Below, piece after piece: positions 60,471 through 64,000 of a stretch of 64,000 nucleotides of DNA (the first letter of the stretch is position 1; every line of letters starts with the position of its first letter). Origin of the DNA: Irineochytrium annulatum (Eukaryota > Chytridiomycota > Chytridiomycetes > Chytridiales > Chytridiaceae); NCBI GenBank assembly GCA_027600665.1, contig JADGJL010000005.1:62001-126000 (forward strand). Direction: 5' to 3'. A program made the translations under genes and the position numbers. The notes beneath the pieces are model-generated. The model saw only the letters and a list, made by a program, of their open reading frames with translations, was not told where the DNA came from and did not search any database.

Positions 60471-61355
60471 TCAATGACCATCGGCTTTTGCAAGCGGTTT
60501 TTCCTCATGTTGGCGGTGCTGAGCTTCATTGGAGTGTTCGGCATGGTTATCAGGCTCTTTTTCCGCATAACGGGCCAATGCCTTCGCAGCAGTCTCGGAC
60601 ATTCGCTCCCGCAACATTGGATGGTCAGCGATTCGAACCCGTTTGCCGAGAAAACGCATTTTGGATAAGACATAATCCATCTCATTTCGCGGGATGGTCA
60701 GCTCAATCCGATATGTCTGCTTGGCTTCCGTGTACTCGACCTGTTTCTCGAAGCATGAGAAAGCATAGAGGATTCGGGACAGCTCCTGATTGAACTCCGG
60801 CAACACTTCGATGGTGATCGTCGTTTTGCGCTTCTCCGTAATTGCAGCAATTCGGGCAGTGTAGCCAGAAGCGGTATCCGGGTCAACCGGTTGGGCTTCC
60901 ACGGCAACGATGCTGTGCAGCTTGGTAGACATGAGTTTGTCGAAGCGAGGTGCGTACCAGAGCACATACCATTCTTTTTTGACCATGGAATACTCCAGTT
61001 TATACGGGAAACCAAATTCATCATGGCTTGTGCGTCCATTGCGGACGCGGCCTGTCATTCGAAATCCCTGATGATGCAGAATGATTAGCCGTAACGGTCT
61101 AAGTAGTGGATGAGAGACACTGTTTTCCTCACTTTTGGCTTTTTCGGTCAGATAGTCCTGAAGATTCAGATCCTGCTCACCGTTCAGCATGTTGTGCATT
61201 TTATCCAATGTTACAGCGCTCAGGGCTTCTCTTGCGGCAGGGTGATTCAGCATCATGCGAAGCCAGGCCCGTTCCTGTGAGGTCCAGGTGAACAGTCCGG
61301 TTTCATTCAGTCGGGTCATCATCTGGTAATTGAACATCTTCTCGAACAGGTTCAT
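60471..61355 (-). CDS. WYL-domain protein (second of a pair)
   Basis: 294 residues from ATG at 61355 (AAGGAG 13 bases upstream); TTG at 61367 and internal Met codons are other options. It overlaps the end of the HTH-WYL gene by 53 bases. N-terminal ~75 residues are helical. The WYL core is visible (SMVKKEWYVLWYAPRFDKLMSTKL, then IVAVEAQPV) with a C-terminal WCX-like part (FEKQVEYTEAKQTYRIELTIP, MRFLGKRVRIADHPMLRERMSE). WYL domains bind ligands or nucleic acid and control DNA- or RNA-stress genes. It lacks an obvious HTH and may work as a partner of the larger WYL protein. Confidence 0.85.
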   Translation of the reverse strand: MNLFEKMFNYQMMTRLNETGLFTWTSQERAWLRMMLNHPAAREALSAVTLDKMHNMLNGEQDLNLQDYLTEKAKSEENSVSHPLLRPLRLIILHHQGFRMTGRVRNGRTSHDEFGFPYKLEYSMVKKEWYVLWYAPRFDKLMSTKLHSIVAVEAQPVDPDTASGYTARIAAITEKRKTTITIEVLPEFNQELSRILYAFSCFEKQVEYTEAKQTYRIELTIPRNEMDYVLSKMRFLGKRVRIADHPMLRERMSETAAKALARYAEKEPDNHAEHSNEAQHRQHEEKPLAKADGH

Positions 61356-62658
61356 AATATTCGGCAATCTCCTTCCATTCCTGGATCATCTCCTGGCGTA
61401 GCCTCTGCGGTTCAATAATTTCGCAGCTTGAGCCAAAACTCCGCAACCACGGTTTGATCTCGGTGGTACCGTTAACCTGGATTTCGTAGAGAAAGGAATG
61501 GTCCGTTTCGGGTATGATCTTGCCCCATTGACCTTGAAGACGAACCCGATCCAGAATGAAATTGCGCTGACCACGTCCCGGGTGGAAAAAGCGAGCTTGA
61601 ACCGTCACGGTATTCCCTGTGTCTACGAGCCAACTGTAGCGACTGATGTCAGTCCACTGCTGCTTCAACTCGAGCATGTATTCCTCTTCGACTGAATCCT
61701 CTTCCTCCAGTTGGGTTATGCCTTCCATGCGGAATTTCACGAAGCCACGGCGGCCCTGAAATCCAATGACATACCAACGACCATACTGATGGTCATAGAC
61801 CACTTCAAGGGGCACGATCCGGTTGGATCGCCCACCTGCTTCTCGTTCAAAGCGTGGATTCGTATTCTGTGAACTGTAGCTGGATGGTTTTTTCGGTGAA
61901 TAGTATAGGAACTGCACACGCTTGCGCTGACGAATCGCACTAAGCAGCGTGTAGAGATGAGCTTCGTCCAGGATACGAGAATAATAGTGATACTTGTAGA
62001 TATAGGGTTCGGTGGCTTCTTCTTGCGGAAAACTTGCGGTAATGGCTTTCTTCAGACTGTCCCGCAATAAGTACCCCTGTACGGAAGGAACCTGGGTATT
62101 TGCCATTATATCCACAAAATCATACAACTCCAGCTGTTCCTCCACGGTTAATTCGGTAAGGACATCTTGCTCCAAAGCATAGCGATACGGTCTGCCACCC
62201 GGCTCTTTTCGAATAACGCCAACCTCTTCCAGATATTTCAGATCAGAGCGAATGGTTTTCTCGTCAGGTAACGCCAGATCTTCCGGCAGATCAGCACAGC
62301 AGGCGTCCAGCAGTTCCATTGCGGTCAGGGCTGTGTTCTGTAGGGTATGCAAAAGGACGGAAAGGCGCTGAACTTCAGTCTCTTTCATCGACTTGGCGCG
62401 GAAGAGGAAGAGCAGCATGGGCTCTGCGGATTCTCCGTACTGGAAGCGCACGAGGTCTGCCATTTCCCGGCTTGCTTCGGCACCTAAACGTTGATCAGCG
62501 ACGGTCTGCATGATTTCTTTTAACCTGCGATTGGTTTTATCAAAGGTATGTACGGATATGCCAAGCCGCTCGGCGTACTGTTTGCGGGTATATGCACCAC
62601 TGGTCAGGGATAACATGCGTAAGAACTGAATTTCTTTGTCAAAACTCTCTTTAGCCAT
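61303..62658 (-). CDS. HTH-WYL-domain transcriptional regulator
   Basis: 451 residues; AAGGAGTGAATACTC before the ATG. An N-terminal HTH (TRKQYAERLGISVHTFDKTNRRLKE) is followed by a second winged-helix-like part (DEKTIRSDLKYLEEVGVIRKEPGGRPYRYAL), then the WYL domain (KFRMEGITQLEE preceded by YDHQYGRWYVIGF) and a WCX end (IKPWLRSFGSSCEIIEP). The gene is divergent from the Y RNA and Ro60-like gene about 270 bases away. That arrangement suggests that it regulates the Ro60 unit, possibly after sensing nucleic-acid damage; this is inferred. Confidence 0.9.
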   Translation of the reverse strand: MAKESFDKEIQFLRMLSLTSGAYTRKQYAERLGISVHTFDKTNRRLKEIMQTVADQRLGAEASREMADLVRFQYGESAEPMLLFLFRAKSMKETEVQRLSVLLHTLQNTALTAMELLDACCADLPEDLALPDEKTIRSDLKYLEEVGVIRKEPGGRPYRYALEQDVLTELTVEEQLELYDFVDIMANTQVPSVQGYLLRDSLKKAITASFPQEEATEPYIYKYHYYSRILDEAHLYTLLSAIRQRKRVQFLYYSPKKPSSYSSQNTNPRFEREAGGRSNRIVPLEVVYDHQYGRWYVIGFQGRRGFVKFRMEGITQLEEEDSVEEEYMLELKQQWTDISRYSWLVDTGNTVTVQARFFHPGRGQRNFILDRVRLQGQWGKIIPETDHSFLYEIQVNGTTEIKPWLRSFGSSCEIIEPQRLRQEMIQEWKEIAEYYEPVREDVQLPDDDPTE

Positions 62659-62930
62659 GAGTATTCACTCCTTGGTGGCCTGGAGTCAGGCGGATATAAT
62701 GGACGACGATGTTGGCAGAACAATTCTGCGGTATAGGAACATTCTTGAACTTCCCATTGGCGATATCCCTTTATTGTAGCAGGAAGAGTGTCAGGTTTCA
62801 TTTTAAACTTATAAAGGTTGACTCCATTGCAGAAATTCAGTCGTCGTCATACTTTCGCCATGTTCGTGTGCAGATGTGTGAGGCATAATGAGGTTGTGAA
62901 GCGGGGCAGCAACAAGCACTGTGGATCAAG
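62659..62930. other. Divergent region between the WYL genes and the Y RNA
   Basis: 272 bases without an ORF. A CATAAT at 62884-62889 could be a rightward -10 for the RNA, but no convincing -35 pairs with it. It should hold the promoters of both directions and any WYL operator. Confidence 0.35.
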
Positions 62931-63066
62931 GTTCCGAGGCGCCAGGGAGGGTTACTTCGACTGTTAATCGACCAGGTCGTTGGTTCGAATCCAATCGCCG
63001 CCGTCCATGGCGGTGTAGCTCAGCGGTAGAGCGGGTATTATACCTTCCCACCTTTTTCCTCGGAAC
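62931..63066 (+). ncRNA. Y RNA (YrlA-like) with circularly permuted tRNA module
   Basis: Two nested outer stems form the Y stem: GTTCCGAGG / CCTCGGAAC (62931-62939 with 63058-63066) and GGGAGGGT / ACCTTCCC (62945-62952 with 63042-63049). Inside is a full tRNA body in permuted order: anticodon-like arm TCGA-CTGTTAA-TCGA (62957-62971), T arm GTTGG-TTCGAAT-CCAAT (62979-62995), acceptor 3' strand CGCCGCC (62996-63002), loop GTCCAT, acceptor 5' strand GGCGGTG (63009-63015), TA, then D arm GCTC-AGCGGTA-GAGC (63018-63032). Published YrlA RNAs mimic tRNA in this manner and tether Ro60 to an effector. It lies 51 bases before the Ro60-like gene. Confidence 0.85.
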
Positions 63067-63117
63067 ATTTTATTATGAAAGAACAGCCATTAGACTCACA
63101 CCAGGAGGTCATGAGTG

Positions 63118-64000
63118 ATGAGCAGAGCGAAACAATTATTCAATCAACCTCAGCCAACGACACGTAATCATGGGGGCTACGGAGCCTATGAGCGATTGGT
63201 GGAGGAACAATATATACAGATGTTGATGACCAATACATTGAACAATACGTTCTATGCCGATACCCAGCAACTGATGGACGATGCGAAGGCCAGTCATCAG
63301 GAGATGGCTGGGGTGGATGCAGGGTATATGGCGCGGGCACTGGTCTATGCTCGCAATGAAGGTTTGATGCGATTACAGCCTATATATGGGCTGGCACTAT
63401 TGTCCAAAGTGGACGCGGATCAGTTTGCAAAGGTGTTCTCCCAAGTCGTACAGACACCGGCTGACTTGGCTGATTTTCTGACCATTCTGAGAGGAATGGG
63501 TCGAGGGCAGGGCGGCCGAGCAGTGAAGCGTCAGGTAAGTCTCTTTTTGAACGGGATCAATGAATACTGGGCGATCAAATACAACGGACGCGGGCGAGGA
63601 TACAGTCTGGGTGATATGATCGCTACAGCACACCCCAAACCGATAGATATGAAGCAGCGAGCCTTGTTTCGTTATTTGCGCGGGCATGAGGTGGATCTTA
63701 CGGAACTGCCACAGTTGCAAGCGCTGGAAGAACTGAAAGCTACGCCCAACCCCGCAAGCCGGATGCATCTGATCGAGAAAGGTAAACTTCCGTACTCGGT
63801 GGTCACCTCGATCATGCAACCGACACGCACGGTGTGGGAGGCGTTAATGTCACAAATGCCGACCTTTGCGTTGCTGCGTCATCTGAACGCAATGGATCGG
63901 GCAGGGGTTTTTGAGAAAGCAAAAAATATCGATGCCGTTACACGTCGTCTAACGGATGTGGAGGCCTTACGTAAGTCACGAATACTGCCTTTCCGATTCG
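63118..64000 (+). CDS. rsr: TROVE-domain (Ro60/Rsr) RNA-binding protein, 3' truncated
   Basis: 294 residues are visible; the frame is still open at the window end. ATG at 63118 lies nine bases after AGGAGG; ATG at 63111 opens a frame that stops after 19 codons. TROVE-family blocks: GGYGAYERLVEEQ, YMARALVYARNEG, RLQPIYGLALLSKV, TPADLADFLTILRGMGRGQGGRAVKR, INEYWAIKYNGRG, and MIATAHPKP. Ro60 forms a ring of helical repeats that binds Y RNAs on its outer face and ends of misfolded RNAs in its hole. A typical Ro60 (about 500+ residues) would continue into a VWA-like domain to the right. The Y RNA just upstream makes a functional pair. Confidence 0.93.
   Translation, partial: MSRAKQLFNQPQPTTRNHGGYGAYERLVEEQYIQMLMTNTLNNTFYADTQQLMDDAKASHQEMAGVDAGYMARALVYARNEGLMRLQPIYGLALLSKVDADQFAKVFSQVVQTPADLADFLTILRGMGRGQGGRAVKRQVSLFLNGINEYWAIKYNGRGRGYSLGDMIATAHPKPIDMKQRALFRYLRGHEVDLTELPQLQALEELKATPNPASRMHLIEKGKLPYSVVTSIMQPTRTVWEALMSQMPTFALLRHLNAMDRAGVFEKAKNIDAVTRRLTDVEALRKSRILPFRF

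Follow-up and report, generated by a model that had tools for sequence, protein, structure and literature searches.

The window, which is the whole 64,000-nucleotide stretch that was analysed, carries near its 3′ end a proposed YrlA-like Y RNA containing a complete circularly permuted tRNA (62931..63066, forward strand, predicted ends; Rfam RF02553 and family model R1). The rsr gene (Ro60/TROVE; 63115..63999, forward strand; PF05731, 57.5 bits) starts 48 bases after the 3′ end of this RNA as part of a 498-aa frame ending beyond the window, with RlaP (PF10127, E 1.9e-99) after it in the contig. A WYL/WCX-domain transcription regulator, identified with Pfam, lies divergent from the RNA on the reverse strand (61303..62658); the second regulator-like gene of the pair (60471..61367, reverse strand) has no Pfam match of its own, and the gene in the same place at the related locus L058 has a weak WYL match. 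A conserved upstream element, CATACTTTCGCCATGTTCG (62848..62866, forward strand), is a possible operator or promoter part and recurs in relatives; its pattern was found in 65 sequences, overlapping ones counted, and a stricter pattern in five places in four of eight genomes. No sigma-70-like promoter was found on the forward strand at 62600-63200, and a scan of the same interval for terminator-like sites also found none, which is weak evidence. The assembly comprises 26.9 Mb in 1082 contigs (G000), far above a Paenibacillus genome, and may therefore be mixed or contaminated. The ten loci nearest in a search with the Rsr protein were from Paenibacillus, and the eleventh was a Bacillota MAG.

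From 5′ to 3′, all on the forward strand, the RNA begins with one strand of a 9-bp outer stem (62931..62939), an internal loop and one strand of an 8-bp inner stem with one G-U (62945..62952), followed by UACU (62953..62956), part of a UUACUUC motif that further Y RNAs of relatives and of phages share. The anticodon arm (62957..62971; stem TCGA/TCGA, loop CTGTTAA, anticodon GTT at 62963-62965) leads through the variable region (62972..62978, last base C48) into the T arm (62979..62995; GTTGG TTCGAAT CCAAT). The acceptor stem occurs with its 3′ strand (62996..63002) before its 5′ strand (63009..63015), the two pairing at 7/7 positions, including one U-G, and being closed by the linker GTCCAT (63003..63008), in which CCA is not conserved. 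U8, A9 and the D arm (63016..63032; GCTC AGCGGTA GAGC, D arm proper 63018-63032) complete the tRNA parts, and the remaining strands of the inner stem (63042..63049) and, beyond an internal loop, of the outer stem (63058..63066) end the molecule. The RNA has the build of a Y RNA: its ends are paired in a long stem with an internal loop, a T arm, acceptor-like stem and D arm follow in sequence, and it stands beside a Ro60/Rsr (TROVE) gene. The first-pass annotation had described a permuted tRNA within a Y RNA stem beside a Ro60-like gene; its coordinates, stems, arms and TROVE gene were all confirmed, with every named element present at 62931-63066.

The Rfam YrlA model aligned end to end with 62934-63066 (31.9 bits; E 4.2e-5 for a search space of 501 bases); in this alignment the anticodon hairpin of the window RNA appears as an insertion of 16 bases, and no match in the window was obtained at the gathering score (69 bits, the curation threshold). 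Because the score lies under this value and the model has no counterpart of the anticodon arm, the RNA is labelled YrlA-like, a variant. R1 was built from 33 aligned RNAs, all carrying the anticodon arm, and its matches therefore favour the arm; it gave 122.6 bits at 62927-63070 of the window, which is one of its 33 rows. The folding z-score of the window RNA was −2.2, and equally good folds occurred in 4 of 200 shuffles. The free minimum-energy fold (−54.4 kcal/mol) pairs the anticodon region differently from the cloverleaf form (−51.0, a gap of 3.4 kcal/mol), and the single sequence is therefore no proof of the arm; support for this predicted arm is comparative and comes from relatives.

TROVE was present in 27 of 75 genomes of the genus (Paenibacillus) and in 65 of 295 genomes of the family. 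A near-invariant copy of the RNA was recovered by a pattern search at 26 of the 27 genus loci, L034 being the exception by the same pattern. Fifty-one loci were analysed in stretches of 8.9-12.8 kb, comprising four loci of the genus and those of 47 family genomes with TROVE outside the genus, the latter selected by protein (Rsr) and not by RNA. At 44 of these 47 loci R1 matched with at least 57 bits, and at 42 the arm was kept with a standard 7-nt loop; the three loci under the cut were L060, L076 and L103, and L060 retains a shortened 5′ part. The Rfam YrlA model gave 32.5-43.9 bits, some matches being partial, at 9 of 11 relatives' loci tested. Among the matches listed, which extended down to about 43 bits, full-length R1 matches of at least 73 bits occurred in 68 of 246 genomes of the order (the model's own genomes included) and matches of at least 74 bits in 8 of 398 genomes of the phylum. 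Four of the latter (G677, G455, G840 and G750) were new to the genus and family lists, and the RNA adjoins a TROVE gene in all but G455, where it lies downstream of a 756-aa WCX/RtcB frame and no TROVE match was found among the proteins scanned. Most matches of both searches were short, with about 45 bits, and covered R1 positions 31-104; at three loci with such phylum matches (L146, L149 and L154) tRNA genes stand in a row there.

Pairing was evaluated in the alignment of the 33 RNAs, which was made with MAFFT free of structure, the structure itself being drawn from members of the alignment. Across 41 pairs and 33 RNAs, 95.3% of cells were paired, the opposite of the loss of pairing in relatives that the first-pass annotation had named as evidence against its reading; pairing fell to 36.8-52.9% when partners were slid by 1-3 columns as a control. 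Two-sided changes were found at 21 of the 41 pairs versus 13.8 ± 1.6 in shuffles, none of 500 shuffles reaching 21, and they were distributed over five of the six helices. The compensatory changes expected in both outer stems were observed, with 7 of 11 counted pairs of the outer stem and 4 of 10 of the inner stem changed on both sides, together with all seven pairs of the acceptor stem and two of the T stem. The single two-sided pair of the anticodon stem, 31-39, is A-U in 31 rows and C-G in two, and the D stem is invariant across the 33 rows, with no two-sided pair.

In total, 98 model hits (96 distinct) were collected, of which 83 (81 distinct) have a standard 7-nt loop on a stem; the other 15 rows are armless or non-standard and were excluded from the loop counts. 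The usual loop is C-U-NNU-A-A, and its anticodons are TTT (29), GTT (17), TCT (13), CTT (10), GGT and TCC (2 each) and eight others found once. Among the 81 distinct standard loops, U33 occurs in 80, U36 in 76, A37 in 78 and A38 in 77, and positions 34 and 35 are variable. U36-A37-A38 is the setting of ANN-reading tRNAs that carry t6A37. On a quick Rsr tree of the 76 rows with both a standard loop and an Rsr frame, in which 27 of 73 inner branches are open, the anticodon changes at least 25 times, and positions 32-38 change 4, 1, 15, 16, 4, 2 and 3 times, respectively.

In native order, ARAGORN called no tRNA on the window. After un-permutation it called a tRNA in 89 of the 96 distinct RNAs, the window RNA included, against 2/96 in native order and 0/96 after shuffling, so that body and anticodon are complete by this measure; the un-permuted window RNA was called Asn(GTT), in agreement with the earlier reading of its loop. 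Of two further ideas of the first-pass annotation, a relic of CCA in the linker was rejected, and direct origin from a tRNA-Asn gene found no support. Linkers vary even within the genus (GTCCAT, GTTCAT, GTACAT, GGTTAT and GTTCGT), CCA occurs in 5/96 of the distinct RNAs, GTCCAT of the window among them, and 65/96 have a linker of at most 4 nt (0-4); a mature tRNA with encoded CCA is thus not what these RNAs generally specify, a point that is not absolute since an enzyme could add CCA. With the anticodon masked and the tRNAs of one related genome as reference, the best match shared the anticodon in 8 of 81 RNAs, and for the window RNA it was Val-TAC (0.72), with Asn at 0.68 and rank index 16. 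Descent from tRNA-Asn is accordingly not supported by these matches or by the anticodon turnover on the Rsr tree, and because so few best matches share the anticodon, it appears to have been swapped on a common tRNA body.

Neighbouring genes were sought at the 51 loci by phmmer with relatives' genes as queries (Pfam was used for the query genes), and the counts are lower bounds because limited stretches were searched. Rsr was found at 51 loci, the WYL1 regulator at 40, RlaP at 29, RtcB at 25 and an uncharacterised 533-aa protein at four; RlaP or RtcB was present at 39 of the 51 Rsr loci and both at 15. RtcB was not found in 10 kb at the locus of the window itself and is present at 25/51 relatives' loci, and five genus genomes searched have two RtcB genes each, all away from rsr. 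RtcA and RtcR were absent among the proteins scanned by Pfam at the loci. The suspected link to RNA-repair enzymes is supported, with RlaP beside rsr and RtcB at many relatives' loci. A conserved protein of about 505-534 aa was also seen between rsr/RlaP and mostly RtcB (L101:7630-9228, also L057, L076, L088, L171 and L181); the 533-aa protein of L101 had no Pfam or NCBIfam match, and a PDB search (E up to 1) gave two weak matches (E 0.49 and 0.6). One 756-aa frame (L168:7351-9618, reverse strand) matches WCX (WYL regulator) and RtcB, with the permuted RNA just downstream, and is a possible regulator-ligase fusion.

Two or three RNAs of like build occur in tandem at 32 of the 51 loci in a loose motif search. 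Further tandem types were recognised by eye, one without tRNA parts and one with the T arm alone, and the permuted-tRNA type is the sole Y RNA type seen in the window and at L105-L107. At 11 of the 51 loci (L088:7942-9282, L057, L061, L062, L065, L068, L070, L072, L076, L084 and L096), two or more tRNA genes (2 to 14) lie upstream of the Y RNAs, a count that leaves out single ARAGORN calls falling on Y RNAs; they comprise His, Gln, Glu, Pro, Asn, Asp, Ile, Lys and Trp tRNAs, and Val at one locus. In G215, 11 of 14 cluster tRNAs have same-anticodon tRNAs elsewhere, with best identities of 62-81%, and three Ile(gat) cluster genes have no counterpart among 56 other tRNAs. The cluster tRNAs of L088, divergent from the genome's others, look like spare or foreign tRNAs. 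A further Y-like RNA, preceded by the same upstream element, was observed upstream of the tRNA cluster at L061:3268-3397 and at L062, L065, L068 and L072.

Relatives of the RNA were also found in phages. The Rsr of the window matches 349 phage records, and blastn with the window RNA matched 18 phage records, none to 80% coverage; several of these matches coincide with pairs of annotated tRNAs, whose junctions they may represent. In the Caulobacter phages CcrColossus and CcrPW, a TROVE-like gene follows the RNA at a distance of about 360 bases, and further, weaker R1 matches occur in the interval. In Xanthomonas phage Olaya, 38 bases separate the RNA from a following gene that matches the CcrColossus TROVE protein, and in Arthrobacter phage Atuin it is found downstream of a Ro-like gene, among tRNA genes. 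The weak Y RNA matches before the Ro gene of CcrColossus (L260:3132-3439) have D arms that by eye resemble those of tRNA-Ser and tRNA-Leu. Among 16 phage Ro loci chosen by protein, R1 gave at least 40 bits in eight (L277 inside a tRNA array) and less or nothing in the other eight; a 7-nt loop with U33 on a stem of at least 4 bp was present at four (L266, L271, L272 and L279) in a loose search confined to R1-matched stretches. Twelve of 14 viral contigs picked by RNA pattern alone score at least 67 bits on R1, three of them with identical sequence, and six of the 12 carry 6-36 ARAGORN tRNA calls; the pattern fixed U36, A37 and A38, and these contigs therefore say nothing on ANN bias. The best 26 matches represent 24 distinct RNAs, 20 of which were called tRNAs once un-permuted, with rough labels of Asn, Thr, Ile and also Gln, Glu, Gly, Trp and Leu, and one unnamed. 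Several phage Y RNAs have no arm or resemble non-ANN tRNAs. Given the mixed isotype labels, phage arrays seem to imitate several tRNAs.

Comparison with known systems places the window RNA as a YrlA-like Y RNA in which the permuted tRNA is complete, a predicted architecture extending well beyond the window. Like YrlA (RF02553), it lies beside rsr and has a long Y stem, a permuted T arm, acceptor-like stem and D arm, and a closed acceptor end; unlike YrlA, its added anticodon arm completes the permuted tRNA, and it reaches 31.9 of the 69 bits set for gathering. Rsr, Y RNA and RtcB occur together in the Salmonella rsr-yrlBA-rtcBA operon, as passages of PMC7790460 describe it, whereas the loci here have a WYL regulator pair, RlaP, often two to three tandem Y RNAs and in some cases extra tRNA genes, and RtcA and RtcR were absent among the Pfam-scanned proteins. 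In the permuted tRNA genes of algae and archaea, according to the excerpted part of PMC3978253, the 3′ half likewise precedes the 5′ half, and processing and re-ligation turn those into working tRNAs; the RNAs described here differ in having a closed acceptor end, no CCA in most cases and a junction enclosed by a Y RNA stem. There is also a likeness to phage tRNAs against anticodon nucleases, as the extract of PMC10264068 presents them, in that tRNA-like RNAs with varied loops are tied to tRNA attack and Ro and tRNA genes stand side by side in phages; those tRNAs are translation-active substitutes, whereas the window RNA would not be chargeable in its predicted form. No earlier description of the anticodon arm was found at the level of titles and abstract openings; the main Y RNA papers are beyond this scope, and priority is not claimed.

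We consider the RNA to be a Ro-bound, non-translating tRNA mimic that would display an anticodon loop to anticodon nucleases and/or repair enzymes, a reading to which we give a probability of about one half. It builds on the observed anatomy, conservation, covariation, anticodon turnover in a fixed frame, neighbourhood and recurrence by phage Ro genes. In the proposed mechanism, Rsr would bind a Y RNA that has an entire tRNA as its effector domain, the Y stem entering between tRNA positions 26 and 27. Closure of the acceptor stem by a short loop would keep the predicted form from being charged, and the permuted RNA would present the D, T and anticodon arms, usually those of an ANN-decoding tRNA (U33, N34, N35, U36, A37, A38). 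The loop could serve as bait or sensor for tRNA-cutting ribonucleases and/or as a scaffold bringing repair enzymes to cut anticodon loops; if it were itself cut, the long Y stems could hold the pieces together for resealing. Transcription of the RNA and its binding by Rsr, as well as any recognition, cleavage or ligation, are inferred. According to passages of PMC7790460, the Salmonella operon is activated by cut tRNAs, mostly with anticodon-loop cuts, YrlA was suggested as a competitive inhibitor of the nuclease, and YrlA fragments were not seen when tRNAs were cut. The Rfam YrlA consensus has no arm. Sections of PMC7824862 describe TROVE proteins and a tRNA-like partner as an RNA-repair platform and RlaP as predicted to restore lost nucleotides, and an extract of PMC12409363 gives U36AAUC as the AriB site and ct6A37 as a requirement of PrrC. 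Counted against the mimic are the negative sigma-70-like promoter scan, the lack of YrlA fragments in Salmonella, the location of RtcB, not beside rsr in the clade of the window, the 15 of 98 rows that are armless or non-standard, and the phage Y RNAs that have no arm or resemble non-ANN tRNAs.

The display role is judged most likely because the arm keeps U33 and U36-A38 while swapping 34-35. Alternatively, the RNA could be an ordinary YrlA, a tether and gate linking Rsr with an effector such as PNPase as well as a substrate of tRNA-modifying enzymes, with the arm a passive leftover. The arrangement of its tRNA elements (T arm, then acceptor, then D arm), shared with Rfam YrlA, and the tether role given in the excerpted review (PMC8394870) are in keeping with this view, which nevertheless seems doubtful to us given that the arm with a standard 7-nt loop is kept at 42/47 Rsr loci outside the genus, that 34-35 change 15-16 times whereas positions 33 and 36-38 are conserved, and that pair 31-39 covaries. 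The loop might also be kept only since the enzymes of t6A37 bind it or modify it (U36-A37-A38), for stability or mimicry; t6A synthesis by itself could explain U36 (76/81) and A37 (78/81) with variable 34-35, given the link between ANN anticodons and t6A37. Since it leaves the repair genes and the repeated change of 34-35 unexplained and phage relatives have non-ANN loops, we regard this explanation as unlikely. A cis-acting leader that stays in the rsr mRNA and through which Rsr or a tRNA-binding protein controls its own gene would suit the 48-base distance to rsr and the absence of a terminator-like site in 62600-63200, but that scan is weak evidence and the tandem RNAs at 32/51 loci, some of them upstream of tRNA genes and not adjoining rsr, make such a role quite improbable.

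Readings that start from tRNA genes fare still less well. Complete tRNA content and an RNA ligase gene at many relatives' loci would be expected of a true permuted tRNA gene whose product, like those of algae, is trimmed and joined (for example by RtcB) to give a charged tRNA. We think this very unlikely, as CCA is found in 5/96 linkers and 65/96 linkers have 0-4 nt, the junction is enclosed by covarying Y stems, and the anticodon wanders without a matching tRNA body among the tRNAs of one genome. Functionless decayed tRNA genes or a tandem-tRNA junction could yield the same order of elements from neighbouring tRNA genes, and short matches of about 45 bits to R1 31-104 are common and were neighbouring tRNA genes in loci looked at; this origin is contradicted by the covarying Y stems, the position beside rsr and the full-length matches of at least 73 bits in 68/246 order genomes (model genomes included), and its probability is close to nil.

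A wider form of the mimic reading, held tentatively and as no more than a possible generalisation, is that bacterial and phage Ro60 RNPs have exchangeable anticodon loops as nuclease bait or sensors, with positions 34-35 tracking changing nucleases and phage arrays mimicking different tRNAs. A Y RNA with a complete tRNA, a fixed loop frame and a changing anticodon, with an end-repair nucleotidyltransferase as neighbour, in many cases an RNA ligase as well and in some cases extra tRNA genes, would provide a direct and testable link of Ro RNPs to tRNA anticodon-loop damage in bacteria and phages. It bears on the role of Y RNAs in RNA-repair operons, where they may show an anticodon loop to tRNA-cutting or tRNA-repairing enzymes, a role open to experimental test.
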